Both the position numbers and the translations under genes were made by a program. A stretch of 26,072 nucleotides of DNA from NCBI GenBank assembly GCA_934293835.1, contig CAKQZO010000006.1:1-26072 (forward strand), written 5' to 3'. This DNA comes from an uncultured Lacticaseibacillus sp. Its GTDB lineage: Bacteria; Bacillota; Bacilli; Lactobacillales; Lactobacillaceae. Of the stretch, positions 8,352 to 23,547 are shown piece after piece (position 1 is the stretch's first letter; each line of letters starts with the position of its first letter). The notes under the pieces were generated by a model. The model was not told the DNA's origin. It saw nothing but the letters and a program-made list of their open reading frames with translations, and did no database searches.

Positions 8352-8395
8352 ACGCAACTCCTCCTCAATGTGTCACCCTTAAGTTGATGCTGCCT

Positions 8396-8518: not shown

Positions 8519-9772
8519 TTATTCTTTGGCCTTGGCCCGCTTGAGGGCGGCCGCGATATCGACTGGGGCACCAGCGACGCGCCGGTCGGGATACTCGGCC
8601 GCGGCCGTGAACAGCAAGTCCGATGCCGAGTTCACCGCGGTTTCCACAGAGTCTTGGATCACGCCGATGATGAAGCCGATGCCGACGACCTGCATCGCCA
8701 CGTCGTTGGAGATACCAAACAGCGACGCGGCCATCGGGATGATCAGCAAGCTCCCACCCGCGATTCCAGACACTCCGGTCGACGCCAAGGCTGCCAAGAA
8801 GCACAGCAATAGCGCCAGCGGCAAGCTGACCGCGATATTCAGCGTGTAGCACGTCGCCAGAGTCATGATGCCGATGGTGATGGCCGCCCCACCAGAATTA
8901 GCCGAAGCGCCCAGCGGAATGGACACCGCATAAGACGTTTTGTCCAGCTCGAGGTCTTCGCAGGCCTTCAGGTTGATTGGGATATTCACAGCGCCGCTGC
9001 GGGTGAAAAACGCCGGGATACCGCTGACCTTCAGCGTCCATAGCGTCAGCGGGTACGGATTCTGGTGCGTCATCAGCGCCACGATCAGCGGGTACGCCAC
9101 CAGGTAGACGAAGACCATCGCCCCCACCAGCAGCAACACCAGCTGGCCATACTTCGCCACTCCGGCAAAGCCGGTTTCGCTGATGGTCGAAAACATCAAC
9201 CCGACGATCCCGAACGGGGCCAACTCGATGATCAACTGCGCAACATGGGTGATGGCGCCGGAGACTTCCGTGATCACGCGCTTCGTCTGCGCGCTGGTCA
9301 GCCGCAGCGCAAACCCAATCGTCAGCGCCCAGAACAAGATGGCGAGGTAGTTCGCCTCGACGATGGCCTGCACCGGATTGGCGACCGCATTGACCAGCAG
9401 ATCGGAGATCACCTTCCCCAGAGCCTTCGGGGCCGCACCTGCGGCCACATGCGCGCTGGCGGGAAACACCAGCCGCACCTTGAACAAGAAGCTGGCGACG
9501 ACCCCCACCACCGCTGACAACAGCGTCGCGGCGAGGTACACCACGATCACCGTGCCGAAGTGATTGTCACCGCCGGCCTCATAATGGGAAATCGCGCTGG
9601 CGATGATGAAAAACACCATCAAAGGCGCGATGCCTTTCAGCGCCCCGACGAATAATTGCCCCAAGATGCCGATCGCGGTGGCATGAGGCACCAACAGCCC
9701 CAACAGCGTCCCCACCACAATGCCGATGACGATCCGCAAAATCAGGCTGATTTCTGTATACCGTTTAAACAT
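8519..9772 (-). CDS. sstT: SstT-type serine/threonine:Na+ symporter, copy 2
   Basis: This is a second DAACS/SstT-like carrier with 417 residues. It is clearly a paralogue of the next gene: long stretches match, including FFTRSGAVNIPINLKACEDL and the C-terminal GISNDVAMQVVGIGF block. Differences concentrate in loops, in the start of the re-entrant loop (SGA against SSA) and in the tail. The ATG at 9772 is preferred, with GAGGGG 9 nt upstream; the frame stays open to 9856 but has no better start. TACAAT at 9803-9808 on the minus strand is a plausible -10 element, with a poor -35. A 14-bp palindrome lies just upstream. Confidence 0.9.
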   Translation of the reverse strand: MFKRYTEISLILRIVIGIVVGTLLGLLVPHATAIGILGQLFVGALKGIAPLMVFFIIASAISHYEAGGDNHFGTVIVVYLAATLLSAVVGVVASFLFKVRLVFPASAHVAAGAAPKALGKVISDLLVNAVANPVQAIVEANYLAILFWALTIGFALRLTSAQTKRVITEVSGAITHVAQLIIELAPFGIVGLMFSTISETGFAGVAKYGQLVLLLVGAMVFVYLVAYPLIVALMTHQNPYPLTLWTLKVSGIPAFFTRSGAVNIPINLKACEDLELDKTSYAVSIPLGASANSGGAAITIGIMTLATCYTLNIAVSLPLALLLCFLAALASTGVSGIAGGSLLIIPMAASLFGISNDVAMQVVGIGFIIGVIQDSVETAVNSASDLLFTAAAEYPDRRVAGAPVDIAAALKRAKAKE

Positions 9773-9835
9773 TCTCACATTCCCCTCACCTGAATCCCTT
9801 CTATTGTACCGAAGCGGTCGGGAAAAGGCGATGAC

Positions 9836-9849
9836 ATTTCCCGGGAAAT
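9836..9849. promoter_or_regulatory. Perfect palindrome, candidate operator
   Basis: ATTTCCCGGGAAAT is a perfect 14-bp palindrome. It lies 28 bp upstream of the candidate -10 element (9803-9808) of sstT copy 2, where activators or repressors often bind. The regulator is unknown. Confidence 0.4.
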
Positions 9850-10056
9850 CATTCATTGGTTGACCAGCTCGATATTGGTGGTGTTAGCCTTTTGCTCCTT
9901 ATTTTTTGGGTCGTCAGTTGCACTTGCCGGCGCTTTAATTGCCGCGGTGATCGTGCAATTGATCTTAAGGCATTCGTGGGCGTAGCTAATGACTAGGATT
10001 TCTTGGAAAATATATGGTGATGCGTGGGCTGGTTGCGTGAGGCAAGGGGCGGTTGC
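9850..10056. other. Gene-poor spacer with a possible coding remnant
   Basis: The 331-bp gap between sstT copy 2 and the XRE gene holds the sstT promoter side, a palindrome and the XRE promoter. In the plus direction a frame ending with TAG at 9983-9985 reads as a strongly hydrophobic peptide (SSILVVLAFCSLFFGSSVAL and onward) with no good start or ribosome binding site. It may be a remnant of a membrane-protein gene or chance. Confidence 0.3.
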
Positions 10057-11330: not shown

Positions 11331-11388
11331 TCTTCAGTTAGCTTCAACGCGGGTATCCCCCAGCAAAAACCGCTCAGCTCCGCCCTGG
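11331..11388 (-). repeat. Structured repeat A0 (short, degenerate copy)
   Basis: In RNA sense (minus strand) this copy starts CCAGGGCGGAGCTGAGCGG and ends with ACCCGCGTTGAAGCTAAC. Both ends resemble copy C2 at 21936-22053, with the middle missing. It directly follows copy A through the junction GTAGCTCGACGAAGAAA-CCAGGGCGG. Confidence 0.6.
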
Positions 11389-11389
11389 T

Positions 11390-11513
11390 TTCTTCGTCGA
11401 GCTACGCAGGACAACGCGGTTGCGTCTAAGTCATCTCGGACGTTCACCGGCTTTGCCGGCTCCCGCCCAAGCTGTCTTAGACACACCGCTAAGCCCATCC
11501 TGCTCCGCTCTCG
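11390..11513 (-). repeat. Structured repeat A (full copy)
   Basis: The unit begins at the base after the oppA TAA. In RNA sense the outer helix is GAGC-GGA-GCAGGA with TCCTGC-GTA-GCTC. The second helix is GCGGT-GT-GTCTAAG with CTTAGAC-GCA-ACCGC. A third helix CUUGGGCG/CGUCCGAG uses two G-U pairs, and the tip is CCGGC-AAA-GCCGG. The helices share their layout but not their sequence with copy B2. Confidence 0.8.
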
Positions 11514-13139
11514 TTATTTTATCCGCGCGCCGACGTAATCATACGTATTGGCCGGCGTGTAGGTCAGGCCCGTGATGTTGCGGCTGACCAGGTGTGCGGC
11601 GACGGTTTGGTACAAAGGCACCATCCCCGCCTGTTCCGTCAACAACTGCTGAGCCTGCTGGAGATCGTTGTAGCGCTTGGTGGCATCCGCCGCGTCGGTG
11701 GTTTTGGAAGCCTGAATCAACGCATCATACTGAGCATTGCTCCAGCCCCCGAAGTTGTAGGTGTTGCCGGTGGTGTACATATCCAAGAAGGAGACTGGGT
11801 CTGGGTAGTCGCCTTGCCAGCTGGACAACACGAGTTGGGTATTGCCAGCCAGCGACTTGGTGACGCGCGTCTTGAACGAAACGGGATCGAGTTTAATTTT
11901 CAACCCTGGTAGCTTCTCCAGCATCGATTGCAGATACACCGCAGTCTGCTTCGCCTGCTCAGTATCATCGGACAACAGCGTGACGTGCAGCGTCGTCTTA
12001 CCCACCGCGTGCATGCCGTCTCGCCACAATTTCTTGGCCCGCGCCAGATCGTACTGGCTGTATTGACCGGCAGAAGACCGCGCGGCTTCTTGTGCAAAGT
12101 CCTCGCCAGTTTTGGGATTCTGGGCGATGCCTTGCGGGGTCAGGTTGCGCGCAATGATCGACCCATCGCGCAACACCTTATCGACGAATTGCGGGCGATT
12201 GATCGCCAAGGAGATCGCCTGACGCAGCTTGGCGTTAGCAAAAGCCGGAACGCGCTTCTGGTTCATATCCAAGAAGCTCGTGCGCCCTTGCATCTGCCCT
12301 TGATAGGCCTTGTCTTTGCGATACACCTGTGCGAGGTTGCCCGTCAAGATCGCATCGTCGAGCCGCCCGGAGCGATACAAGCTCAAGGCCGTGGCGGAGT
12401 CCTTGACGACTTCAGTTTTGATTGTCTTGATATGAACGTTCTTAGCATTCCAGTACCGCGGATTTTTGACCTCAGTCCACGCGGTATCATTGCTGCTCCA
12501 GCGCCGCAGCGTATATGGCCCATTAGTCATCGTCGTCTGCGAGCTGGTACCGTACTTCGCGCCATACTTGGCCACCGTCGCTTTGGCCATCGGGAAAAAC
12601 ACCGGGCTGACCATCATAGTGTTGAAATAAGGGATCGCGTGGTCCAGAGTAACGACTAGTGTGTGGGCATCTGGGGCGCTGATCCCTAGCGTCTCCGGCT
12701 TCGCCTTGCCAGCTTGGATCGCATCGGCGTTCTTGATGCCGAAAAAAAGATAGGCGTACTCGGACTCCGTCGCCGGGGCGACTGCTCGGCGCCAGGCATA
12801 CACGAAGTCTTGTGCCGTGACCGGCTGGCCATTGCGCCACTCAGACGCACGCAAATGATAGGTATAGGTCAGCCCACCATTAGTTGGCTGGACCACCGTC
12901 GTCGCCAGCGCCGGCTTGAGCCTGTTGCTGGAATAGCGGTACAGGCCTTCCATCGTGTCGACTGCAGTTTGCCCAGAGACCTGATCGATAATTTTGGCGC
13001 CGTCTTGCGTCTGAATCACATCTTTGGCCATCCGCGACCAAGTGTTGGTTTGCGTCGGCTTCTTGGCTTTCGGCTTGTGTTGACAGGCGCTCAGCGTCGC
13101 CAGTGCCAATAATGCGATGACGATCTTACCCCACTTCAT
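11514..13139 (-). CDS. Peptide ABC transporter substrate-binding lipoprotein (OppA-like)
   Basis: This is an extracellular, lipid-anchored receptor of solute-binding family 5, which captures oligopeptides for an ABC importer. The chosen start gives 541 residues. A signal peptide with the lipobox LSAC puts the lipidated cysteine at about residue 19. The mature protein shows the family pattern YHLRASEWRNGQPVTAQDFVYAWRR and a C-terminal GGWSNAQYDALI region. GGGAGG lies 10 nt before the ATG and 4 nt before an in-frame GTG at 13145, so either start is possible. No permease or ATPase gene is adjacent, so it must use components encoded elsewhere. Its 3' region carries a structured repeat pair. A pheromone-binding role cannot be excluded. 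Confidence 0.9.
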   Translation of the reverse strand: MKWGKIVIALLALATLSACQHKPKAKKPTQTNTWSRMAKDVIQTQDGAKIIDQVSGQTAVDTMEGLYRYSSNRLKPALATTVVQPTNGGLTYTYHLRASEWRNGQPVTAQDFVYAWRRAVAPATESEYAYLFFGIKNADAIQAGKAKPETLGISAPDAHTLVVTLDHAIPYFNTMMVSPVFFPMAKATVAKYGAKYGTSSQTTMTNGPYTLRRWSSNDTAWTEVKNPRYWNAKNVHIKTIKTEVVKDSATALSLYRSGRLDDAILTGNLAQVYRKDKAYQGQMQGRTSFLDMNQKRVPAFANAKLRQAISLAINRPQFVDKVLRDGSIIARNLTPQGIAQNPKTGEDFAQEAARSSAGQYSQYDLARAKKLWRDGMHAVGKTTLHVTLLSDDTEQAKQTAVYLQSMLEKLPGLKIKLDPVSFKTRVTKSLAGNTQLVLSSWQGDYPDPVSFLDMYTTGNTYNFGGWSNAQYDALIQASKTTDAADATKRYNDLQQAQQLLTEQAGMVPLYQTVAAHLVSRNITGLTYTPANTYDYVGARIK

Positions 13140-13269
13140 CCGCACAGTACCTCCCTTATCGTTGTTAACGTTCAGGTTACGGGAAAATACCGGGGAAGTA
13201 AAGCGGCGCTGAGGCGCGCCTAAGCAGACCTTCAGCCGATTCTCATCGAATTATCTTAAATCCGTGACC

Positions 13270-13300
13270 ACAAAAAGAAGGACCTGTGAAAACAGCCCCG
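13270..13300 (-). terminator. Weak terminator candidate after the MFS gene
   Basis: On the minus strand an imperfect short stem (GGGGCTGT with ACAGGTCC, one wobble and one mismatch) is followed by CTTCTTTTTG. The stem is weak, so some readthrough into oppA is possible. Confidence 0.4.
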
Positions 13301-13308
13301 TCTTAGCT

Positions 13309-14541
13309 TCAATTACGTTCTGGTTTGATTGTATCGATTTGATCCTTCGTCCGCCAGACCTGCCGCGTCGCCGGGAACAGCAACAAGACGTTGATGCCTT
13401 CTAAGATGGCTGTCATCATGAAGACCCCGCGGTAGCTAAACAGACTGGCGACCACCGAACCCATCATCGGCCCGGACACACTGCCCATCGCCTGAAACGA
13501 CTGGTTATATGAGAAGATGCGCCCGAACCCGGCCTTGGGCACGTAACGCGTCATCAATGTCTGAATCGCAGGCAACAGCGCCGCGTCAGAGATGCCTAAC
13601 AGCATCCGCAATAACCCCAGCTGCCAGATGTTGGTGATGAAGCTCATTGGGATGAAGCACACCACCGCCAAGATCAGCCCTGCCAGCAGCACCTTTTCCG
13701 GGCCGATACGGTCGGACAAGGCGCCGAGCAAAGGACTGGCGATCAGCGTGACGATCCCAGGTAGCGACGAGATCACCCCGGAGACGAAGGCCACCTGACC
13801 GGGATTCTTGACCATCGCATCGACCAGCAGACTGATGAAGCTGGTGATCGACATGTTCGCCGCCTGAATCACCATCGTCGTGATGAACAGCCCCCAGATC
13901 AGCTGCGGGTACCGGATCTCCTTGAAAATCTGCTTGGTCGGCATCATCTGCGCCTTTTTCATCGGGGTGAATTCTTCATGGACAAAAAACAGCGTCAGCA
14001 AGAAGACGACTAACATCATCGCCCCGGTCACCAGGAAGCTAGACCGATAACCGAACATTCCGGCCAACACGCCGCCAAGCAGCGGTCCCAACAGCGTCCC
14101 AACGACGTTACCGGTCGCCAGCGTCCCCAGCGCCTTACCGGAGCGTTCCACCGGCACGCTGGCTGCAATGATCGCGTTGGCGTTATTGATGTAGCCGGAG
14201 AAACAGCCTTGAATCGCGCGCAACACGATCAAGACACCAACGTTAGGCACCAAGCCGCACAGCGTGATCGTGAAGGTCATCCCGAGGCTGGCGCGCAAAC
14301 ACATCGGCTTACGCCCGTATTGATCGGCGAGCCGCCCCCAGAAAGGCGAAACGATCGCCTTGGCCAAGAAGGTGATCGCAAACGCGAAGCCGCTCAGCAA
14401 GTTCAACTCCCACTTGCCAAAATGACCTAGCGTCTGAATAAACAGCGGTAAGAATGGCATCGTCATCGAAAACCCCATGCCAGTCATGAAGTTGCCAAAC
14501 CACAGGTACACCAAATTCGTCTGCCAGCGCTCACGTTTCAT
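13309..14541 (-). CDS. MFS multidrug-type efflux transporter (DHA1)
   Basis: This is a 12-segment major facilitator protein of 410 residues. Motif A is seen as GRLADQYGRKP (about residues 70-80) and the antiporter motif C as GTLLGPLLGGVLAG (about 150-163). The second half repeats the loop as GALSDRIGPEKV. This pattern is typical of proton-driven drug exporters of the lactic acid bacteria; the substrate is not known. The ATG at 14541 is used with GAGGTG 6 nt upstream; a GTG at 14550 lies inside that ribosome binding site. It has its own promoter. Confidence 0.9.
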   Translation of the reverse strand: MKRERWQTNLVYLWFGNFMTGMGFSMTMPFLPLFIQTLGHFGKWELNLLSGFAFAITFLAKAIVSPFWGRLADQYGRKPMCLRASLGMTFTITLCGLVPNVGVLIVLRAIQGCFSGYINNANAIIAASVPVERSGKALGTLATGNVVGTLLGPLLGGVLAGMFGYRSSFLVTGAMMLVVFLLTLFFVHEEFTPMKKAQMMPTKQIFKEIRYPQLIWGLFITTMVIQAANMSITSFISLLVDAMVKNPGQVAFVSGVISSLPGIVTLIASPLLGALSDRIGPEKVLLAGLILAVVCFIPMSFITNIWQLGLLRMLLGISDAALLPAIQTLMTRYVPKAGFGRIFSYNQSFQAMGSVSGPMMGSVVASLFSYRGVFMMTAILEGINVLLLFPATRQVWRTKDQIDTIKPERN

Positions 14542-14571
14542 TTGCGTCACCTCGATTGGAATAATATTAAA

Positions 14572-14599
14572 ACTCTATCACTGTATTCTCATTTGTCAA
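14572..14599 (-). promoter_or_regulatory. Promoter of the MFS gene
   Basis: On the minus strand TTGACA (14594-14599) is followed after 16 bp by TAGAGT (14572-14577). The -35 is consensus and the -10 matches at four positions. The -35 runs into AAATGAG, a string also seen near the ilvD and brnQ promoters. Confidence 0.6.
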
Positions 14600-14621
14600 T
14601 TAACGTCACCCGGGGCAAAAC

Positions 14622-14660
14622 AAAAACCAAGACGGCTCTCCATGAGACCCGCCTTGGTTG
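14622..14660 (-). terminator. Terminator of the BASS carrier gene
   Basis: On the minus strand ACCAAG and CTTGGT close a stem with further CGG/CCG pairing around ATGG, followed by TTTTTGTTTTG. It ends transcription from the BASS gene before the MFS promoter. Confidence 0.8.
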
Positions 14661-14675
14661 ATTTGCTTCAAGCAA

Positions 14676-15641
14676 TCAGTGTGTCGCAACGGTTGTGGCC
14701 GTCGCCTTTTGCTTTTCGCTGTGACCGCGCCACCAAGAAGACAACACGGACCCAGAGATATTGTGCCAGATACTGAACAGGGTCGAAGGAATCGCCGCAG
14801 CCGGGGCGAAGTAGGCCATCGCTAGCGTCGCACCGAGACTAGAATCTTGCATCCCCACTTCGAAGGTGATCGCCTTGCGTTGTGGCTCTTTCAACCGGAT
14901 CAAGAACGAGAAGCCTAAGCCCAGCGCGTAGCCGGACAGGTTGTGTAAGATAACTACTGGGATCACGATCGCAGTCGCGGCCGTGAACAGGTTCGCGTGG
15001 TTGGCAGAAACTACGGCGCCGATGATCAACAAGATTGCAGCTTGAGAAACCAGTGGTAGTGCCCGAGTGACCACATCAACTTGCTTGCGGAACAAGGTGT
15101 GGATCACAACCCCTAAGATAATCGGCACCAGGACGATTTTGACTGTGCTCAGGAACAGGGACTGGGTTGGGATCGGCACATACTTGCCGGCGTACAACAC
15201 CAGCAGACCTGGCAATGCCAACGGGGCAATCAATGTCGATAGCGTTTCGATCGAAACATCAAGGGCAACATCACCCCCGGCCAGATAAGCCATCACAGAT
15301 GAGCTCGTCCCACTTGGGCAGGAACCGACCAAGATCACGCCGGCAGCCGTCGCGCCTTGCAAGTTGAAGATCTTGCACAGCAAGACCGCGATCAACGGCA
15401 TGATGACATAATGTGCCACCGTCCCTAAAATGACAGGCAACGGCCGCTTCAAGATACGCGCGAAGTCTTCCCCACGCAAGGTCAGCCCCATGCCGAACAA
15501 GATAATGCCAAGCAAGTAACTCGTGTTTGGAATAATTGCAGTACTGGTCTGCGGAACAAAATAGTTGAACGCCGCCCACACAATGACAATCAATGTAAAC
15601 CAATGACTGACCCATTTACCAAATGCTTCCACTTTATCCAT
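14676..15641 (-). CDS. BASS-family (bile acid:sodium symporter-like) carrier
   Basis: This is a membrane transporter of 321 residues with about nine hydrophobic segments. It carries the family patterns FGMGLTLRGEDF (about residues 50-61), GSCPSGTSSSVMAYLAGGDVALDV (about 106-129, near the sodium sites) and FEVGMQDSSLGATLA (about 260-274). Bacterial members are rarely bile-acid carriers; PanS of Salmonella moves ketopantoate and pantoate. Because the gene lies downstream of ilvD, whose product is a pantoate precursor, a keto-acid or pantoate role is a reasonable inference. GAGGCG precedes the ATG by 6 nt. The two structured repeats B2 and B1 fill the space between it and the sufT-like gene. Confidence 0.88.
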   Translation of the reverse strand: MDKVEAFGKWVSHWFTLIVIVWAAFNYFVPQTSTAIIPNTSYLLGIILFGMGLTLRGEDFARILKRPLPVILGTVAHYVIMPLIAVLLCKIFNLQGATAAGVILVGSCPSGTSSSVMAYLAGGDVALDVSIETLSTLIAPLALPGLLVLYAGKYVPIPTQSLFLSTVKIVLVPIILGVVIHTLFRKQVDVVTRALPLVSQAAILLIIGAVVSANHANLFTAATAIVIPVVILHNLSGYALGLGFSFLIRLKEPQRKAITFEVGMQDSSLGATLAMAYFAPAAAIPSTLFSIWHNISGSVLSSWWRGHSEKQKATATTVATH

Positions 15642-15660
15642 AAAATCGCCTCAAATTTCT

Positions 15661-15722
15661 TTCTTCGTCGAGCTACATGGCGCAACGGGCATCGCGGATA
15701 AGCCCATCCCGTTTCGCTCTGG
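15661..15722 (-). repeat. Structured repeat B1 (62-bp deletion derivative)
   Basis: This copy keeps both ends of the unit (CCAGAGCGAAACGGGA and GTAGCTCGACGAAGAA) but lacks the central arm. Its sequence can be derived from a B2-like unit by a deletion between the two TAAGC strings that flank that arm. It ends just before the leader of the BASS gene. Confidence 0.8.
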
Positions 15723-15723
15723 G

Positions 15724-15848
15724 TTCTTCGTCGAGCTACACGGGACAACGGCATCGCGGATAAGCAATCGCGTGCTTGCACCGGCGATGCCGGCACCGCA
15801 CCCACGCTTTCTTATCCACATGCCTAAGCCCGTCCCGTTTCGCTCTGG
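15724..15848 (-). repeat. Structured repeat B2 (full 125-bp copy)
   Basis: The unit starts one base after the sufT-like TAA. In RNA sense the outer helix is GAGC-GAA-ACGGGAC with GTCCCGT-GTA-GCTC. The second helix is GGCAT-GT-GGATAAG with CTTATCC-GCG-ATGCC. The distal arm has GCGTG/CACGC and a CCGGC-ATC-GCCGG tip. Compared with copy A, two helices have changed on both sides at once. Confidence 0.85.
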
Positions 15849-15849
15849 A

Positions 15850-16176
15850 TTAATAATGATACCGTAGGGCCATTCTGGCGTAGCGGCTCATCTTATCTGG
15901 CGTCCAGGCAGGCGACCAGACGATCTCGATATTGACCGCAGCTACCTCGGGTTCCTTCTCCAGTGCCGATTCGATCATGTTCTGCAAGACCTGACTGATC
16001 GGGCAACCTATCGTCGTCAAGGTCATCGTCACCGTCACAACGCCATCTTGCATGTTCAACCCATAGATCAAGCCGAGGCTCACCAAGTCGACACCGAGCT
16101 CGGGATCAATCACCCCAGTCAGGTCTGCTAACAGCCGGTCTTTCAGATCAACCGCAGTCGTTTCCGTTGTCGCCAT
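15850..16176 (-). CDS. SufT-like MIP18/DUF59 iron-sulfur protein
   Basis: This is a 108-residue protein of the MIP18/DUF59 family, whose members help insert iron-sulfur clusters into target enzymes. Visible landmarks are VIDPELGVDLVSLGLIYGL (about residues 21-39) and TTIGCPISQVL (about 54-64) with the conserved cysteine. GAGGGAGG lies 6 nt before the ATG. It starts 20 bp after ilvD on the same strand, so the two are almost surely cotranscribed. Since IlvD carries a labile iron-sulfur cluster, service to IlvD is an attractive inference. The older name metal-sulfur cluster biosynthesis protein also applies. Confidence 0.88.
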   Translation of the reverse strand: MATTETTAVDLKDRLLADLTGVIDPELGVDLVSLGLIYGLNMQDGVVTVTMTLTTIGCPISQVLQNMIESALEKEPEVAAVNIEIVWSPAWTPDKMSRYARMALRYHY

Positions 16177-16196
16177 GGTATCCCTCCCTCTCAGTC

Positions 16197-17948
16197 TTAG
16201 TCGTCTTCTTCCTTACCGAACAACTCATCTGCACCGCGCATCACACCACCGGTGTTGGCTGAAGTCACTAAGTATTGATACCGCGCGAGGTAACCGAAAC
16301 GCACCTTCGGCTTGAACGGCCTGAGTTCTTTGCGCCGGCGGGCGAACTCTTCATCAGACACGGCGACGTTCAAGGTCCGGTTGGTCAAATCGATCGTAAT
16401 CTTATCGCCATCGTGAATCAGCGCGATTTCACCACCGGAAGCCGCTTCTGGCGATACGTGGCCGACACAGATGCCGTGGGTCGCCCCGGAGAAGCGCCCG
16501 TCAGTGATCAAGGCCACCGTCCGGCCCAAGCCGCGGCCAATGATATCGGAAGTGGGGTTGAGCATTTCCGGCATCCCCGGTCCGCCTTTAGGGCCTTCGT
16601 AGCGAATCACGACGACGTCTCCGGCTTTGACCGTACCGTTGTCGATGCCTTCGACCGCCTCATCATGTGAGTCGAAACAGACTGCCGTGCCGACGAACTC
16701 ATGGATATCATCGTCGACCCCAGCCACCTTGATGACCGAACCGTCTTTGGCGATGTTGCCGTACAGCACGGACAAGCCACCTTCAAGCGAATACGCGTTG
16801 TCGATGGTGCGGATCACTTCCGCATTCAGCGTGTGCGCACCGGCGACATTTTCCCGCAAGGTCTTGCCGGTGTTGGTCAGGCGGTCGGGATGCAAGATCC
16901 CGCCGTGTTCGATCAACTCGTTCAAAATGGCCGGAATTCCGCCTGCAGCATGTACTTCTTCCATCGTGTAAGCGGAGCTCGGCGCAATCTTGGCGATATG
17001 CGGCGTCTTCTTGGCGATGGCGTTGATGTCTTTTTCGGAATAAGCGATGCCCGCTTCATGGGCGATCGCCAAACCGTGCAAGACGGTGTTGGTCGAGCCA
17101 CCCATCGCCATATCGAGAGCGAAGGCATCGTCGATCGCGTCTTTGGTGACGATGTTGCGCGGCTTGATGTCGTGTTCGACGTTGTACATCACCTGCCGTG
17201 CGGCTTTGCGAACCAGGTCGCGGCGCTCGTCGGAAGTCGCCAACGCGGTGCCGTTATATGGTAAGGCCAAGCCGAGTGCTTCCATCAAAGAATTCATCGA
17301 GTTGGCGGTGTACATCCCGGCACAAGAACCGCAAGATGGGCAGGCGTTTTGTTCGAGTTCGAGGAAATCTTCCTTGGACATCTTCCCGTCCTTGAAGGCG
17401 CCGACGGCTTCGAACACGGTCGACAAAGTTGCGGCCTTCCCGTTCGGGTCGAGGCCGGCCTTCATCGGGCCGCCGGAGACGAACGTGCACGGCACGTTGG
17501 TCCGCAGGCTGGCCATGATCATGCCTGGCGTGATTTTGTCACAGTTCGGCATGTACAAGACCCCGTCGAACCAGTGCGCGTTGATGACCGTCTCGGCAGA
17601 ATCGGCGATCAACTCGCGACTCGGCAACGAATAGCGCATCCCGATATGGCCCATCGCGATGCCATCATCGACCCCGATCGTGTTGAATTCAAAAGGAATT
17701 CCGCCAGCCTTGCGAATCTCTTCCTTGGCGATGTCCGCCAACTCGCGCAGATGCACGTGCCCCGGCACGATTTCGATGTAGGAATTGCAGATGGCAATGA
17801 ATGGTTTCTTCATGTCCTCTGGGTTTTTCACCTTCCCGGTTGCGTATAATAAGCTGCGCCCAGGCGCGCGATCAACGCCGACGGTGATTTCATCACTGCG
17901 TTTTTGCATGTCGTCGCCGCTGAGATTGAAGTTCAACGTGTCACTCAT
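16197..17948 (-). CDS. ilvD: Dihydroxy-acid dehydratase
   Basis: This cytosolic enzyme dehydrates 2,3-dihydroxy-3-isovalerate and 2,3-dihydroxy-3-methylvalerate to the keto acids that precede valine, leucine, isoleucine and pantothenate. It has 583 residues, slightly longer than usual because of a short N-terminal extension. Cluster and metal ligands are visible as C54 (AICNSY), C136-D137-K138 ([10 protein letters not shown]) and C209 ([14 protein letters not shown]). [19 protein letters not shown] is near the C terminus. The gene has its own promoter and a leader hairpin, and is followed by the sufT-like gene. No other ilv or leu gene is in the window, so the pathway context remains open. 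Confidence 0.97.
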
Positions 17949-17970
17949 TTTGACTCACCTTCCGTTTACA

Positions 17971-17991
17971 AATCGACGTTTCGCGTCGATT
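17971..17991 (-). other. Leader hairpin before ilvD
   Basis: AATCGACG (17971-17978) and CGTCGATT (17984-17991) form an 8-bp stem with a 5-nt loop in the ilvD 5' untranslated region, just upstream of the ribosome binding site. It has no T-run; a role in mRNA stability or translation is possible. Confidence 0.5.
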
Positions 17992-17998
17992 AATGGCA

Positions 17999-18026
17999 AT
18001 ATTATCACCGTTTTCTAATGTGTCAA
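17999..18026 (-). promoter_or_regulatory. Promoter of ilvD
   Basis: On the minus strand consensus TTGACA (18021-18026) is followed after 16 bp by TAATAT (17999-18004), about 50 bp before the start codon. Further upstream lie AATGAGTTTTT (minus strand, 18030-18040) and, at 18090-18104, a string matching 12 of 15 positions of the CodY box. Confidence 0.65.
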
Positions 18027-18117
18027 CTAAAAAACTCATTTGTTTATTATTCCGTGTCAGGTCTAAGCGCTGTACCACAAGGCCTCCCCTGTTTTCTGAA
18101 ATTTTTTGCCGGCCACC

Positions 18118-18168
18118 AAAAAAGCGCCTCTGGGTCATGATTCAATTGAATCATGACCTAGAGGTGCT
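18118..18168 (-). terminator. Long-stem terminator of rpiA
   Basis: A near-perfect stem of about 20 bp, with GGTCATGATTC and GAATCATGACC around AATT, ends in TTTTTT on the minus strand, 10 nt beyond the rpiA stop. Confidence 0.9.
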
Positions 18169-18178
18169 CATCAGTTTT

Positions 18179-18871
18179 CTAGCGGCGGGTCCGGTGCTCG
18201 ATCGTCCCGTCTGCCTTGGCGATCAACACATCATCGGCGAAGTTCATGAACAACCCGTGTTCGACCACACCGACGGTCGCATCAAGATAGGCCGCCAAGC
18301 CGGTCGGCACAGGCAGTGGATCGACATGCAAATCGATGATCAAGTTACCATAATGCGTCTTCAGGCGGCTCCCGTCGGCATTCCGCCGATAGTCCGGTTG
18401 CAAGCCCGCCTGGTCGAAGCGCTGGAAGTTCTGCTTGGCAGACACCGGCAAGACCTCGACCGGTAGTGGGAAGCCGGACAGGCGCTGAACCACTTTAGAT
18501 TCATCGACGATCCAGACGTTACGCTTAGAGTTGACCGCGACGTTCTTCTCCAAGGTGTGCGCTGCGCCGCCTCCCTTGATTCCATTGAGATCAGCGTCGA
18601 CGCGATCGGCGCCATCAACGGTCAAATCGAGCCGATCCACATCGGCCAACGCGTTGACTGTGAAGCCGTTTTCCTCAAGCTGCTTCTGGGAGCGATTCGA
18701 GGTTGTCACGATCGCCTTCAAGTGTAGTGGCGTCTGGCGGTTACGCGCCCCTAATGCGTCGATGAAAAAGGCGACGGTCGAGCCCGTACCGACGCCAAGC
18801 GCCATCCCCGGTTGCACCATTGCGACAGCTTGTTGGGCTGCTTGTTGCTTGAGTTCATCTTGTGTCGGCAT
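18179..18871 (-). CDS. rpiA: Ribose-5-phosphate isomerase A
   Basis: This cytosolic enzyme interconverts ribose 5-phosphate and ribulose 5-phosphate in the pentose phosphate pathway. It has 230 residues, standard for RpiA. GVGTGSTVAFFI (about 26-37) and TTSNRS (56-61) bind phosphate. The catalytic set D86, D89, K99 and E108 is present in DGADRVDADLNGIKGGGAAHTLEK. The usual DGADEVD reads DGADRVD here, and GGGGALLREK reads GGGAAHTLEK, so it is a divergent member; it may be a second RpiA tied to the neighbouring sugar system. GGAGGG precedes the ATG. It has a good promoter that overlaps the end of the rpiR-type gene. Confidence 0.93.
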   Translation of the reverse strand: MPTQDELKQQAAQQAVAMVQPGMALGVGTGSTVAFFIDALGARNRQTPLHLKAIVTTSNRSQKQLEENGFTVNALADVDRLDLTVDGADRVDADLNGIKGGGAAHTLEKNVAVNSKRNVWIVDESKVVQRLSGFPLPVEVLPVSAKQNFQRFDQAGLQPDYRRNADGSRLKTHYGNLIIDLHVDPLPVPTGLAAYLDATVGVVEHGLFMNFADDVLIAKADGTIEHRTRR

Positions 18872-18908
18872 ACTTGCCCTCCGTTTTGGCTAAAAGTGAC
18901 TACACATA

Positions 18909-18937
18909 ATTTTAGCGCGTGCCGGCAGCGGGTTCAA
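18909..18937 (-). promoter_or_regulatory. Promoter of rpiA
   Basis: On the minus strand TTGAAC (18932-18937) and TAAAAT (18909-18914) are spaced by exactly 17 bp. The promoter abuts the stop codon of the upstream regulator gene, whose TGA lies inside a CTCAATTGAG palindrome. Confidence 0.75.
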
Positions 18938-18938
18938 C

Positions 18939-19721
18939 TCAATTGAGATTATCCTCAAGCTGCCGCACGTTATCGGGACGCGCAAGCATCATCGCCCGGC
19001 GCGTGATTTTCTCGATGATGTAGATTGCCGGGGTCTGACTCGTCAGATTCGCCCCGTCGAGGTCTTGGGTCGTCACATAATACGCCAGCGCCACCGTCGC
19101 CAGACGCGCGATCGTCGAATTCGACGAGTTGGTAATTGCGATGATCGGCACGCCATGCTTCATCAGCTCGTTCATGTACCCGATCGCTACGCGATTCTCG
19201 CCGGACACCGAGCAGATGACGACACACATCGCGTGATACACTGCTTCGGGATAGTCTACCAGCGGATGCGTGCTCGGCGCCGTAAGCGAAAAGGCCATGT
19301 TGACGCTGTTGGAATAAGTCGCCGCACCGTAATCCGCGACCATCTTAGACGTGCCGAGCCCGACCCACACCACCTGGGCATGCTCATACAGCAGGTGTGC
19401 TGCCCGATCCATCGCCTGTTGATACTGCCCGTCTTCGCAGGCCGCGATCGAGCGCGTGATCTCGCCACCGTCGATGTCGTTGGGTAGCTGCCCTTGGTGG
19501 TTGCGCTGGGCGTTATACATCCGCAGCTTCGTCTTGAACTCAGCCCAGCCAGAACAATCGAACTTCTGGCAGAACCGTTGAATGCTTGCGGTGCTACAAT
19601 ACGTCGTCTCCGCCAAATCGCGGATGCGCATGTAGATCACGGCATCCATGTCCTTCACGATCTCACGATAGATCGTCATATCCGTTTCCGTTAATTCCGG
19701 CGTGTAATTCAAAAATAGCAT
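18939..19721 (-). CDS. MurR/RpiR-family regulator with SIS domain
   Basis: This is a transcription regulator of 260 residues. An N-terminal helix-turn-helix of the RpiR type spans about residues 1-77, with IRDLAETTYCSTASIQRFCQKF as the recognition region. A sugar-isomerase (SIS) domain follows at about 105-235 (VWVGLGTSKMVADYGA; CSVSGENRVAIGYM) and binds phosphosugars in this family. GAGGAG lies about 7 nt before the ATG. Its neighbours are rpiA downstream and a PTS IIC gene upstream, all leftward. AGGTGATACA occurs upstream of both this gene and the PTS gene, consistent with autoregulation and control of the PTS. Confidence 0.9.
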   Translation of the reverse strand: MLFLNYTPELTETDMTIYREIVKDMDAVIYMRIRDLAETTYCSTASIQRFCQKFDCSGWAEFKTKLRMYNAQRNHQGQLPNDIDGGEITRSIAACEDGQYQQAMDRAAHLLYEHAQVVWVGLGTSKMVADYGAATYSNSVNMAFSLTAPSTHPLVDYPEAVYHAMCVVICSVSGENRVAIGYMNELMKHGVPIIAITNSSNSTIARLATVALAYYVTTQDLDGANLTSQTPAIYIIEKITRRAMMLARPDNVRQLEDNLN

Positions 19722-19747
19722 GGCGTTTCTCCTCGACCAAAACCGCT

Positions 19748-19778
19748 TGTATCACCTCTGAACAAATCGGATTTGTTC
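19748..19778. promoter_or_regulatory. Candidate operators upstream of the rpiR-type gene
   Basis: TGTATCACCT (19748-19757) recurs at 21406-21415 before the PTS IIC gene. Next to it GAACAAAT and ATTTGTTC (19760-19767, 19771-19778) form an 8-bp inverted repeat. The half ATTTGTTCCC occurs again at about 19926-19935. No clear promoter was resolved in the AT-rich stretch 19780-19800. Confidence 0.45.
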
Positions 19779-19983
19779 CCATAAATTAATTTATTTTCTA
19801 TTACGACTGTCGTTTAGGTAATCGGTAACGCATTCACCCACCTGTTTATCATACAATACGATGTCACAAAAACGGTTGCAATGTTACAAATACCATAATC
19901 GTCACAGCCAGTAACACTCGTGCATATTTGTTCCCACAACTTATCTGCTGACTTAACGCTTCCTTCAACCGACTCACGGCAAT
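19779..19983. other. AT-rich intergenic spacer
   Basis: No gene is seen here. The stretch holds a second ATTTGTTCCC at about 19926-19935, several TTACAAAT-like and CGGTAAC/CGGTTGC strings, and probably the promoter of the rpiR-type gene, which I could not place with confidence. Confidence 0.4.
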
Positions 19984-20016
19984 CAAAAAGCGCCTCCGCT
20001 ACTCTCGGAGACGCTT
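19984..20016 (-). terminator. Terminator of the PTS IIC gene
   Basis: Arms 20006-20015 and 19989-19998 (AGCGTCTCCG with CGGAGGCGCT, one G-T pair) form a 10-bp stem with a T-run on the minus strand, 6 nt after the stop codon. Confidence 0.88.
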
Positions 20017-20021
20017 GGTGA

Positions 20022-21314
20022 TTATGCTTGCGCCTGGGCATCAGCCGCGGCTTGGGCATCTTTTTTATTTTGCATCGCCGTTGCCATGACGACAAACGGC
20101 GCGTAGATGACGGTCGCAACCACCAGGTTAACAGCTGCGATCACCCCACCTTGCCAGCTGGCAGTCGCAATCACGCCGCCGATGATCGGTGGTGTGACCC
20201 AAGGCGCCATGACGGTACATGCCGGCATGAACCCAGTCGTCGTTGCAAAGTATGCGATCGTGATGCAGACCATCGGGGCCAAGATGTATGGCACGAACAG
20301 AATCGGATTCAAGACGATCGGCAACCCGAAGGTCAGTGGTTCGTTAATATTGAACAGCCCTGGTGCAAACGACATGGAAGCGACCATGTTATACGCCTTA
20401 TTCTTCCGGGCGAAAATCCAAATCGCGATAATCAACGAGATCGTCACGCCGGTACCACCCATGTTTACGAAGGAGTCAAACAGCGGCTTGTTCACTACGT
20501 AAGGAATTTCTTTACCCGCCTTCAACGCGGCCAAGTTGGCCGTAATCGCCGGGGCGTTGATCGTCTGCATGAACGGATCGATCATGTTGGCCCCATGCAG
20601 CCCGAAGAACCACAGGAACGGCGTGATGAACGCGATCAACAGCGCGGTTGGATAAGAGTTGGCCATCCCCATGAATGGTTGTTGGACGGCTTTGTAGAAC
20701 GCCAGCACTAGGTTTTCGACATGCGCGGCGTTGAACAGCGTCGTCACAAGGCCGAAGAACAGCATCGTGATCATCGCCGGTAACAACGCGGCAAAAGAAG
20801 TCGCCACTGCAGGTGGCACTGAATCTGGCATCTTGATGACCAAATGCGGGTTGGATTCGAGGCGCCGGAAAATTTCAACGGAAATGATGGCAACTAACAG
20901 TGCAATGAATAATCCGGTGGAATCCATCCCAGACGCCCCACCAACAGCGAAGAACGAGCCTAACGACACGATCCCTGCAGCAACAGGCGCTGATTTGTAC
21001 GACTGCGCTAAATTATAGGCTACCAAGAAGGCGATCATGACCCCGAGCACAGCATAGGTCCCACTCCACAAGTTCCCCCCGAGCTTGGTCCAAATGAACG
21101 ACCCGTCCTTCATCTTCTCGCTGAAGATCCCATTCATTAAATCGATATAACCTGGGATCGGCAGGTTGTTGATCAAGGTCGCGAACGCCCCTAAGATCAT
21201 GAGTGGCATCGTGTAGGCAAACGCATCCCGGATCGCGATCAAATGGCGTTGATTACCAATTTTGGACGCGATCGGCAGGAAGTGTTTTTCCATAAACGCG
21301 ATAAAGCTTTGCAT
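20022..21314 (-). CDS. PTS lactose/cellobiose-family EIIC
   Basis: This is a sugar permease of the lactose/N,N'-diacetylchitobiose family, with 430 residues and about ten membrane segments. The N terminus (FMEKHFLPIASKIGNQRHLIAIRDAF) and the internal FGLHGANMIDPFMQ and FNINEPLTFGLPIVLNP stretches are characteristic of CelB-type permeases. No IIA or IIB gene is adjacent, so it relies on partners encoded elsewhere, as often happens in lactobacilli. The substrate (a beta-glucoside or other disaccharide) cannot be fixed. AGGGGG lies 8 nt before the ATG. It has its own promoter with palindromic operator candidates. Confidence 0.93.
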   Translation of the reverse strand: MQSFIAFMEKHFLPIASKIGNQRHLIAIRDAFAYTMPLMILGAFATLINNLPIPGYIDLMNGIFSEKMKDGSFIWTKLGGNLWSGTYAVLGVMIAFLVAYNLAQSYKSAPVAAGIVSLGSFFAVGGASGMDSTGLFIALLVAIISVEIFRRLESNPHLVIKMPDSVPPAVATSFAALLPAMITMLFFGLVTTLFNAAHVENLVLAFYKAVQQPFMGMANSYPTALLIAFITPFLWFFGLHGANMIDPFMQTINAPAITANLAALKAGKEIPYVVNKPLFDSFVNMGGTGVTISLIIAIWIFARKNKAYNMVASMSFAPGLFNINEPLTFGLPIVLNPILFVPYILAPMVCITIAYFATTTGFMPACTVMAPWVTPPIIGGVIATASWQGGVIAAVNLVVATVIYAPFVVMATAMQNKKDAQAAADAQAQA

Positions 21315-21355
21315 AAACGTTTCCCCCTTTGTTTTTGTTTCCGCTTACATGTCTA

Positions 21356-21415
21356 GTTATATCATCACCGAGGCGGCCGACTCAATGATACATGTATCAG
21401 AGCGGTGTATCACCT
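21356..21415 (-). promoter_or_regulatory. PTS IIC promoter with TGATACA operators
   Basis: On the minus strand TTGAGT (21380-21385) and TATAAC (21356-21361) are spaced by 18 bp. A perfect 14-bp palindrome TGATACATGTATCA (21386-21399) abuts the -35. AGGTGATACA follows (21406-21415) and is shared with the rpiR-type upstream region, so the RpiR protein is the likely binder. Confidence 0.6.
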
Positions 21416-21498
21416 GCCCTTACATTAAGCGTAGCAGGTTCGAGGCAGCCAACGCACGGATAACGGGCGTGATTTTAATCCTCATTTGTTTTTTATGG

Positions 21499-21526
21499 TT
21501 GACAATGAGTTTTCTCATGCTATACT
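21499..21526 (+). promoter_or_regulatory. Promoter of the brnQ T-box transcript
   Basis: Consensus TTGACA (21499-21504) and TATACT (21521-21526) are spaced by 16 bp. The spacer holds ATGAG-TTTT-CTCAT, a 5-bp inverted repeat. CTCATTTG lies just upstream. Confidence 0.85.
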
Positions 21527-21544
21527 CATTTACAACAAGACATA

Positions 21545-21809
21545 AATGCAACGAGAAAGACCAGTAGTCGAGCGTCAGCTTCAAGCGAGCTTCGTAAGGT
21601 GTGAGGAAGCAAGCGGGCGGTCGATGAATATCCCTTTCGAGCAGGACACCGAAACCTAGTAACGTGTCATGGCAGAACGCCCATTATCGTGTTCGCGTAT
21701 CGCTCTTTGGAGCCGTACGTCATGAGGCTATTTGTGGCGACACAAGTAGCGTGTTAAGGTGGTATCGTGCTACGGCACCCTTAGTTAAATCTAAGGGTGC
21801 CGTTTTTTT
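21545..21809 (+). ncRNA. T-box leader controlling brnQ
   Basis: This is a tRNA-sensing riboswitch that lets transcription continue when its cognate tRNA is uncharged. Stem I opens with GAAAG and closes with CTTTC (about 21553-21630). It contains the AGTA of the specifier-loop motif and, on the 3' side, TGAATATCC, where ATC (isoleucine) is the likeliest specifier given the downstream carrier. The antiterminator carries the T-box string AAGGTGGTATCGTGC (21756-21770), framed by GTAGC/GCTAC. TGGT would pair with the ACCA end of a tRNA with discriminator A, as in tRNA-Ile. A strong terminator follows. The specifier reading is moderately sure; the T-box class is clear. Confidence 0.9.
21773..21809 (+). 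terminator. T-box regulated terminator
   Basis: CGGCACCCTTAG (21773-21784) and CTAAGGGTGCCG (21791-21802) form a 12-bp perfect stem with a 6-nt loop and seven T residues. Its 5' arm competes with the antiterminator. Confidence 0.93.
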
Positions 21810-21811
21810 GT

Positions 21812-21934
21812 CCAGAGCGAAGCAAGCCGAACTTAGGGCGTAGGATAACGTGTGCGATCAGCGAAGCGAGACCCCTTGCGTAGCTGATCGTGCCGTTATC
21901 CCTAGCCCGTTGGCTTGCGTAGCTCGACGACGAT
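21812..21934 (+). repeat. Structured repeat C1 (full copy, inverse orientation)
   Basis: Starting 2 nt after the terminator T-run, the outer helix is GAGC-GAA-GCAAGCC with GGCTTGC-GTA-GCTC. The second is GGGC-GTA-GGATAACG with CGTTATCC-CTA-GCCC. The distal helix GATCAGC-GAA-GCGAG with CTTGC-GTA-GCTGATC repeats the GAA/GTA loop. RNA sense matches the brnQ transcript. Confidence 0.85.
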
Positions 21935-21935
21935 A

Positions 21936-22053
21936 CCAGAGCGAAGCTGAGCGTATTTACCGGGTCGGATAGCCTAGCGAGCACGCTTGGGGCGAACTTG
22001 GCCTCGAGTGTGATTGCGTAGCTAGCTGTACCCGCGTTGCTCAGCGTAGCTCG
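21936..22053 (+). repeat. Structured repeat C2
   Basis: The outer helix is GAGC-GAA-GCTGAGC with GCTCAGC-GTA-GCTC, then CGGGT/ACCCG. A distal arm pairs CTAGC-GA-GCA with TGC-GTA-GCTAG and ends in CUUGGGGC/GCCUCGAG, which uses G-U pairs. It directly follows C1 and precedes the short ORF before brnQ. Its ends resemble copy A0. Confidence 0.8.
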
Positions 22054-22102: not shown

Positions 22103-22195
22103 ATGGACAGTGGTATTAGTAATATTAGACCGGATAAACATGACGACAATCCTGGAGGAACTCAATTATGGAAAAACTTGTTGAAAAGAAATTAA
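22103..22195 (+). CDS. Short ORF overlapping brnQ (30 aa)
   Basis: An ATG at 22103 preceded by AAAGGAG (9-10 nt away) opens a 30-codon frame (MDSGISNIRPDKHDDNPGG, then TQLWKNLLKRN) that ends at TAA 22195, 28 nt inside brnQ. The brnQ ribosome binding site TGGAGG lies within it, so translation of the short frame would affect brnQ initiation. Its codons are more AT-rich than those of its neighbours, and it has two isoleucine codons. It may be a leader peptide that couples translation, or a chance frame; I do not recognise the product. Confidence 0.5.
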   Translation: MDSGISNIRPDKHDDNPGGTQLWKNLLKRN

Positions 22196-23547
22196 GTAAA
22201 CGCGACTATCTCGTCGTCGCCTCAATGTTGTTTGGCTTATTCTTCGGTGCCGGCAACCTGATCTTCCCGCTTCACCTCGGCCAGTTGGCCGGTAGCAACT
22301 GGGTCCCAGCGACCCTCGGCTTTCTCGTCACCGCCGTGATTTTGCCGCTACTGTCTGTGCTGGCGGTGTCGGCGATGCACGCCGAAGGGGTCTACGACAT
22401 CGGCAAGCCATTAGGCGCGTGGTTTGCGGTATTATTCATGGTCTTGATCCATCTGACCATCGGCCCACTGTTCGGGACCCCACGGACGGCCACGGTTTCG
22501 TTCACCACTGGCGTTGCGCCGATGCTGCCTAAGTCGATGCAGACCACAGGCCTGCTCGTTTTCTCCGCAGTCTTCTTCTTGGTCGCCTTTCTCCTTTCTT
22601 ACAAGGAACAACGGATCACGAGTGCGATCGGTAAAGCTTTGAACCCAGTCTTCTTAGTGCTCTTATTCTTCGTTTTCTTCTTCGGGTTCACCCACTCCAT
22701 GGGTAGCGCCTCAGCCCAAGCCAACACGGCTGGCTACACCGCATTAGGCGGCAGCTTCTTCAACGGCTTCTTACAAGGTTACAACACGATGGACGCGCTG
22801 GCCGGCTTGGCCTTCGGGGTCACCGTCGTCACCGCCGTCCGCGGGCTTGGCCTGAAGCGGCAAAGCTCGGTTTCTAAAGTCACCGCCAAAGCCGGCGTGT
22901 TGGCCACCAGCATGATCGGCTTGGTCTATCTGTTCTTGATCGTCTTAGGGGCCAAGTCCTTGGCTAACTTCAAAGTCTCTGCTGAAGGCGGCACGGCCTT
23001 CAACCAAGTGGTTACCTACTACTTCGGTACCGCCGGCCACGCCTTGTTGGCCACCCTATTGACCGTCACCTGCTTGACCACCGCGGTTGGTTTGGTCGCC
23101 GCATTCGCTCAAGACTTCCACAAGCATTTCCCCGTTTTGAGCTATGTACAATGGCTCGGCTTGATGAGCTTCGCCAGCTTCTTAACCGCCAACTTCGGCC
23201 TGGCGACTATCATCTCCTGGTCCACTCCAATGTTGATGTTCCTCTATCCCTTCGCCATGGTCTTGATCTTATTGAGTGTCACCGGCAAGTGGTTCAATCA
23301 TGACAAAACGGTTTACGCCTTCACGGTCGCCTTCACGGCGGTGCCTGCCTTCTTCGACATGATCGCCGCCTTTCCACCGGTTGTTTCTCAATCCGCTTTA
23401 GGGGTGGCTTTGACCAACTTCGAGCACGGCTTCTTCCCATTTGCGACATTGGGGATGGCTTGGGTCGTTCCCGCAGTGGTCGGCTTGGCCGTCGGGCTAA
23501 TCGTCTACAAAGTTCGGGCACGCAATACCGCCAACGCCCTCAACTAG
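22168..23547 (+). CDS. brnQ: Branched-chain amino acid carrier BrnQ
   Basis: This is a membrane symporter of the LIVCS family that imports leucine, isoleucine and valine with a cation. It has 459 residues and about twelve hydrophobic segments. The N-terminal GLFFGAGNLIFPLHLGQLAG (residues 18-37) and FGTPRTATVSFTTGV (about 102-116) are family signatures. TGGAGG lies about 9 nt before the ATG. Expression is controlled by the T-box leader upstream, probably through isoleucine tRNA charging, and the transcript then passes through repeats C1 and C2 and a short overlapping frame. A strong terminator follows. Confidence 0.96.
   Translation: MEKLVEKKLSKRDYLVVASMLFGLFFGAGNLIFPLHLGQLAGSNWVPATLGFLVTAVILPLLSVLAVSAMHAEGVYDIGKPLGAWFAVLFMVLIHLTIGPLFGTPRTATVSFTTGVAPMLPKSMQTTGLLVFSAVFFLVAFLLSYKEQRITSAIGKALNPVFLVLLFFVFFFGFTHSMGSASAQANTAGYTALGGSFFNGFLQGYNTMDALAGLAFGVTVVTAVRGLGLKRQSSVSKVTAKAGVLATSMIGLVYLFLIVLGAKSLANFKVSAEGGTAFNQVVTYYFGTAGHALLATLLTVTCLTTAVGLVAAFAQDFHKHFPVLSYVQWLGLMSFASFLTANFGLATIISWSTPMLMFLYPFAMVLILLSVTGKWFNHDKTVYAFTVAFTAVPAFFDMIAAFPPVVSQSALGVALTNFEHGFFPFATLGMAWVVPAVVGLAVGLIVYKVRARNTANALN

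Follow-up and report, generated by a model that had tools for sequence, protein, structure and literature searches.

A family of hairpin repeats of about 118 bases, common to many lactic acid bacteria and apparently undescribed

The stretch of DNA analysed here, in the following called the window, comprises 26,072 nucleotides (nt) of an uncultured Lacticaseibacillus (contig CAKQZO010000006.1). It resembles a Lacticaseibacillus chromosome: its SBF-family transporter has 92% identity with the counterpart in L. baoqingensis, the closest named genome, and shared genes have a nucleotide identity of 65–80%. Across three intergenic stretches the window contains five units (A, B1, B2, C1, and C2) of a hairpin repeat of about 118 nt and one remnant. 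These units belong to an apparently undescribed multi-genus repeat family which is common to many lactic acid bacteria.

Array A is anchored at the stop codon of a gene for an extracellular solute-binding protein of family 5 (11514..13145, minus strand; PF00496, 2.7e-74). Unit A (11395..11512, minus strand) is an intact hairpin of about 118 nt with a fold z score of -7.2; it starts 1 nt past the TAA, and the 5' flank reads ...ATAAAATAA up to the C at the onset. It is followed by A0, a decayed second unit (CCAGGGCGGAGCTGAGCGG...CGCGTTGAAGC; 11341..11388, minus strand), which was recognised by eye. Array B is anchored at the stop codon of an FeS-assembly-like gene (15850..16176, minus strand; PF01883, 2.4e-19). 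The intact unit B1 (15729..15847, minus strand; fold z -5.5) starts 2 nt past the TAA of this gene, with the 5' flank ATTATTAAT. Unit B2 (15666..15721, minus strand), situated 3' of B1, has an internal deletion leaving 56 nt, and its fold z of -0.95 means that it has no strong fold. The SBF-family transporter gene (14676..15641, minus strand; PF01758, 1.1e-40) lies downstream of array B.

Array C is anchored at the terminator hairpin of a T-box with its T7 run (21774..21809, plus strand; read by eye). The T-box leader (21542..21785, plus strand) matches RF00230 with 77.6 bits (E 1.9e-15), which is under the gathering score of 93. Unit C1 (21813..21929, plus strand; fold z -9.8) starts 2–3 nt past the T7 run and is followed on its 3' side by the more diverged unit C2 (21937..22056, plus strand; fold z -5.9). 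The T-box and array C are followed by a brnQ-like gene for a branched-chain amino acid transporter (22168..23547, plus strand; PF05525, 6.5e-125), and the array sits in the read-through segment between the T-box terminator and the transporter gene. Within C1 the GAA/GTA internal-loop motif is nested a second time (21858–21888), as if the units were assembled from repeated helix-loop modules.

The units were scored with the covariance model R1, which was built from 25 units of L. baoqingensis and three units of the window. Unit A obtained 110.5 bits, and the first unit outscores the second in array B (110.0 vs 26.6 bits) and in array C (73.1 vs 56.3 bits), A, B1, and C1 all having belonged to the training set of R1; in array A the intact unit is followed by the decayed remnant. 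A preliminary description of this DNA had counted six units. Five of these are retained, and the sixth is the remnant A0, whose R1 score is not significant. The unit named B2 in that description is the full unit, here renamed B1 as the first in RNA sense, and B2 now denotes the 56-nt deleted copy. The short string CCAGAGCGAA occurs four times exactly in the window and at 30 places with up to two mismatches (26.9 expected), and is thus not enriched by itself. GTAGCTCGACGAAGAA was found three times exactly and once with two mismatches, the expectation at up to three mismatches being 0.15.

On the sense strand the unit folds into a stacked-helix rod, the outer part of which consists of a GAGC/GCTC stem, a 3x3 internal loop GRA/GYA, and a variable helix of 7–8 bp. 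This helix is closed by a C-G pair and a conserved G-U pair, followed by the asymmetric loop YUUAG/GUU. The inner part comprises a helix of 4–5 bp, a second internal loop, a helix of 7 bp, and the inner hairpin. The only terminal inverted repeat of a unit is the 4-bp outer stem. The sequence strings quoted in the preliminary description are present in the window, and the helix pairs given there for A, B, and C1 were found in the sequence as well as in the predicted folds. Of the junction proposed there, a CTTAG-like string on the 5' side and GTT on the 3' side recur in most rows of alignment A1, but one subtype has TTATGG/CATG.

It had also been proposed that both arms of the helices change together. 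In a MAFFT alignment of 28 units, 24 of 33 pairs have changes on both sides, and none of 500 shuffles matched any of five measures. Among 147 distinct units from many genomes 91.9% of the cells pair, a count that leans towards the model structure to which the alignments A2–A7 were fitted, and the covariation is 0.918 compared with at most 0.172 for slid structures. In 500 shuffles of this set three of the five measures were reached by none and the other two by 4 and 13. For a phylogenetic test, 146 of 150 units (duplicates and units outside 100–130 nt left out) were realigned blind to the structure, and a tree and 20 simulated null alignments, a null of our own making that preserves tree and composition, were used. 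Of 6328 column pairs, 27 were above this null (E <0.05), and all 27 lie on two nested diagonals forming one hairpin. The proposed covariation thus holds against slid structures, against shuffles on most measures, and against a tree-aware null.

The pairing is furthermore asymmetric between the strands. G-U exceeds A-C by 841 to 24 and by 423 to 51 in two unit sets; these counts likewise lean towards the fitted structure, and near-fixed G-U columns inflate the first figure. At the position next to the YUUAG/GUU loop, 139 of 147 units have a G-U pair. Among units of at least 110 nt the sense strand forms the more stable fold in 233 of 233 and in 146 of 151 cases. Judged from these sequences, the structure is under selection, and on one strand.

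No Rfam family reached the gathering threshold for the units of the window, and 12 loci of other genomes returned only a T-box outside the unit and two weak miRNA matches, all below threshold, in agreement with the earlier failure to assign the units to a known family. As far as found in open-licence PMC papers, the family is undescribed in Lactobacillaceae, although a subscription paper may exist. Further copies in relatives, which the preliminary description had proposed to look for, are numerous. The 16-nt terminus occurs with up to two mismatches at 22 places in L. baoqingensis and at 2 for the reversed control. At least 112 copies are present in L. baoqingensis (G001) and at least 150 each in a congener (G024) and in genome G020; copy counts are lower bounds throughout (9 to 150 first-pass candidates scored per genome), and the model E-values are rough. 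R1 matches at E ≤0.001 were obtained in 25 of 30 genomes of the genus, and two of the five negative ones (G003 and G014) match a broader model, R2, built from 84 matches.

With R2 the family was detected in 27 of 40 named genomes: in all genomes of Secundilactobacillus (6/6, 28 to at least 91 copies), Companilactobacillus (5/5), Lentilactobacillus (4/4), Loigolactobacillus (4/4), Agrilactobacillus (2/2), Paucilactobacillus (2/2), and Limosilactobacillus (1/1, one copy), and in 3/8 of Liquorilactobacillus. R2 gave no match in Streptococcus (four genomes), Lactococcus (one), Bifidobacterium (two), or one other genome of the Lactobacillaceae. Wider even draws gave, as lower bounds, R1 matches in 33 of 301 genomes of the family and R2 matches in 56 of 395 genomes of the order and 29 of 398 of the class; kinship within these draws is not given, and a reach past Lactobacillales is not proven. 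Full-length matches are mostly 113–126 nt long. In the distant members that were read, the outer helix still has GCGRA...GYAGC-like ends and the junction is TTAG...CTG-like; several of them occur in tandem. In the arrays of G001 and G024 at least three subtypes were distinguished by eye (TTTAG...GTT; TTATGG...CATG; TTTAGCGCGTAG). They are mixed within arrays, which suggests separate unit lineages using common sites.

The positions of the arrays were analysed in 60 regions of G001 and G024, fetched because they hold units. Here 247 of 248 matches form 95 head-to-tail arrays of 1–7 units with A-rich linkers, and the spacing is 4–9 nt at 145 of 152 junctions. The one antisense match was left out, as were four antisense matches of 163 in other genomes and three of the 95 arrays located at an edge; one array split by a region border (L180/L181) was counted as two. 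Adjacency to a stop codon was assessed with mechanical open reading frames (ORFs) of at least 90 codons and required at least 50 open codons within 12 nt, a test that overlooks short genes as well as arrays whose first unit is a decayed mini-unit. By this test 50 of 92 array 5' ends lie 0–12 nt after a stop codon, 39 of them at 1–3 nt, and 5 follow a T-run. The controls gave 418 of 4310 for random intergenic positions and 11 of 89 for the convergent 3' side at a wider limit of 24 nt. TAA is present at 46 of the 50 anchoring stops compared with 380 of 713 genes. The TAA motif alone was rejected as the cause, since stops make up 393 of 3738 non-coding TAAs but 46 of 92 arrays lie at stop TAAs.

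Of 100 arrays in the other genomes, 31 come after a stop codon and 11 after a T-run. G020, a single contig of 2,988,387 bp of which 40 of 110 regions were read, has 15 of 40 arrays after a T-run and 2 after a stop codon; among its remaining arrays, several were seen by eye to adjoin an antisense gene on its Shine–Dalgarno side, and several to come after an older unit. Among 84 arrays, of which 4 overlap a mechanical ORF, both neighbouring genes are in array sense in 42 cases, both antisense in 19, and mixed or cut in 23.

The arrays are also polarised. In 54 of 67 arrays with more than one unit, the one at the 5' end has a higher score than the one at the 3' end (p 4e-7), with 25 single-unit arrays and 3 at locus ends left out, and the same holds for 19 of 23 arrays in G020 (p 0.003). 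At 14 hand-picked orthologous sites shared by G001 and G024 the flanks are about 74–92% identical; the identity of the first units is 0.61–0.79 at 13 sites and 0.85 at one. At two orthologous sites the best match crosses ranks (rank 2 with rank 4 at 0.86, and rank 3 with rank 1 at 0.85), which agrees with displacement by newer units; unrelated units of the same subtype can also be alike. Some arrays are missing from the sister species, and arrays A and B of the window are absent from L. baoqingensis (B checked at the orthologous site). The elements seen at three loci are not local ones: they belong to a repeat family that spans several genera, has anchored and polarised arrays, and turns its units over fast.

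Units are present on plasmids as well. A G020 unit as query matched 15 plasmids and no phage, whereas two other unit variants gave no plasmid match and C1–C2 of the window no match in plasmids or phages by BLAST. The same unit stands between the IIB and IIC genes of a phosphotransferase system (PTS) in L. paracasei pMGB0734-3 and Pediococcus inopinatus pCM-BC1-3, and another one at that site in L. paracasei pMGB0245-2; the flanks are about 99% identical by eye and the whole 1.8-kb stretches 97–98%. At this site L. plantarum pLP12-1 (L315) keeps just the terminal 13 nucleotides of a unit. L. rhamnosus k32 and L. paracasei L1 p2 have a common unit after a terminator, 57 nt being lost inside the L1 p2 copy. 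A subfamily in G020 begins with GAGCGCGAGCC and ends with GAGCGCGTTA, which are short terminal direct repeats. Slippage between them could lead to the loss of units, in agreement with the scar on pLP12-1.

We considered several explanations for these observations. The one that we prefer, with a probability only slightly above one half (about 0.52), is a dispersed, non-coding, structure-selected repeat of about 118 nt resembling repetitive extragenic palindromic (REP) sequences and miniature inverted-repeat transposable elements (MITEs), which is selected for its single-strand fold, added 5' at fixed sites, and turned over fast. Its units would probably be mobilised in trans by a machinery that might recognise the folded single strand, RNA or single-stranded DNA. 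A new unit could be added at the 5' anchor, or take the place of the resident one when ends recombine, and older units would then be displaced in the 3' direction and decay. Units in gene sense directly after stop codons or terminators could form the 3' ends of mRNAs and might, as a secondary effect, influence mRNA decay or translation termination. A wider version, which we regard as rather doubtful, is that the units are mobile RNA-like cassettes across Lactobacillales and perhaps all Bacilli: fold-recognised rods of about 118 nt with oriented insertion at gene or transcript ends, the newest at the anchor, and with exchange between plasmids and chromosomes.

Several observations weigh against the preferred explanation. 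First, there is no gradient past the first rank (mean bits by rank 108.0, 93.3, 97.3, 94.2, 97.7, 89.7, and 100.2); the difference is mainly between the first unit and the rest, for which stronger selection on the former would account equally well. Second, no clean pre-insertion site with an exact footprint was found, the species-level empty sites being diverged, and a target duplication is not visible at these diverged sites. The short site of pLP12-1 is a deletion scar and not a virgin site, and P. pentosaceus pMGB0620-1, which has neither unit nor scar, is 92% identical and too diverged to fix the junction. Third, the anchoring is incomplete: neither a stop codon nor a T-run precedes 37 of 92 arrays in G001 and G024, 58 of 100 in the other genomes, and 23 of 40 in G020, and with TAA at 19 of 31 stops the other genomes have no clear TAA preference. 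Fourth, no Y1_Tnp or RVT_1 match was found in the unit-rich genomes G007, G011, G016, G018, and G020, in a search limited to these two families and with some of the genomes being drafts. In G020, with dnaA at 331 and the terminus placed at 1.5 Mb, the 117 arrays formed by the 150 best units have no strand bias between the replichores either: 30 are minus and 28 plus on one, and 28 minus and 31 plus on the other. Finally, the excess of sense over antisense neighbours suits a function in the 3' untranslated region (UTR).

Such a function is the basis of the main rival, which we consider possible, with odds clearly against it: the units could be a cis-acting 3'-UTR element that is kept by the host, blocks 3' exonucleases, tunes termination, or attenuates operons, and is spread by gene conversion. 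REP sequences near stop codons have effects in E. coli. The bias for G-U on one strand, the covariation, the adjacency to stop codons, the 42:19 orientation of neighbours, and the score of the first unit would all be expected of such an element, and because the polarity and the sense bias fit it too, this rival stays alive. It is less easily reconciled with first units that are not conserved at their sites, differing between sister species and between near-identical plasmids, with the 19 of 84 arrays antisense to both neighbours, and with copy numbers that vary widely among species, some sites being empty in relatives. The two explanations can be combined if the element survives by landing where it is least harmful and by tuning 3' ends.

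It is unlikely that the units are palindromes derived from IS200/IS605 or from REP sequences with their REP-associated tyrosine transposase (RAYT), moved by a Y1 (HUH) transposase on lagging-strand single-stranded DNA. IS200/IS605 elements have an orientation bias. The fixed orientation, the hairpin, the same-strand arrays, the lack of a visible target duplication, and a 5' flank that in G001 and G024 is A-rich or TAA would be in line with this mechanism. Y1_Tnp (PF01797) is present in 13 of the 30 genus genomes, but the five unit-rich genomes without a match to it or to RVT_1 suggest that the family can be kept without a RAYT or reverse transcriptase resident in the genome, although either could have acted in the past. 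The missing replichore bias in G020 also argues against it. In excerpts of one survey REP sequences are 20–40 bp long with GTAG or CGTC tags (PMC3733652). Such an end tag is not conserved across genera here, where the 3' ends vary (GACG, GTTA, GTTT, AGACA).

Even less probable is the retro-insertion of a structured RNA, for instance beside terminators, by a reverse transcriptase of group II or retron type. Class C introns are situated next to terminators, and the RNA-like fold and the anchoring after terminator T-runs would suit this route. RVT_1 was found in 11 of the 30 genomes but, besides the five named above, also not in G013 and G028. Least credible of all is the absence of structural selection, with template-switch correction of quasi-palindromes producing double changes without function, since such correction should erase the non-complementary internal loops and the G-U pair (139/147) that persist, and since G-U and A-C are strand-asymmetric.

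Two other features of the window lie apart from the arrays. Two tandem sodium:dicarboxylate symporter genes (7053–8357 and 8519–9856, minus strand) are 72–81% alike in DNA in three blocks and are likely an old duplication. Between the genes for ribose-5-phosphate isomerase and an ilvD-like protein there is a loopless 46-nt palindrome (18123–18168) with 23-nt arms that are 91% complementary, possibly a bidirectional terminator.

If the preferred explanation is correct, many Lactobacillaceae genomes have a very common intergenic feature for which there is no Rfam entry, no description that we found, and no known machinery. The family would be a tractable system for how non-coding elements come to occupy stop codons and terminators, and it would bear on the annotation of 3' UTRs, on operon read-through, and on strain typing in food and gut bacteria.

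Several known systems have features in common with the units. The EFAR repeats of Enterococcus faecalis are miniature and variably assembled and are said to integrate at stem–loops; they are L-shaped double stem–loops of about 170 bp that keep part of the target stem. The bcr repeats of the Bacillus cereus group are likewise interspersed and structured, some being mobile without a transposase. Integron attC/VCR sites are imperfect hairpins of about 120 bp after stop codons, recognised by their fold and growing in a polarised manner; unlike these, the units here adjoin each other without intervening gene cassettes. Among the stem–loop families covered in excerpts of a survey, ERIC reportedly folds as a single long stem–loop and BOX is intergenic, as the units are, Efa-1 of E. 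faecalis is a stem–loop pair, and Lac-1 of L. johnsonii lies in genes; these excerpts make no mention of stacked polar arrays or of a family in casei or plantarum (PMC2267715). CGTC REPs reportedly have no dedicated transposase, according to the excerpts cited above (PMC3733652). The units here resemble REP/BIME sequences as dispersed intergenic hairpins of high copy number with heterogeneous stems and some grouping. They differ in the missing Y1 match in five unit-rich genomes, in being a multi-helix unit of about 118 nt instead of 20–40 bp, and in their head-to-tail arrays.

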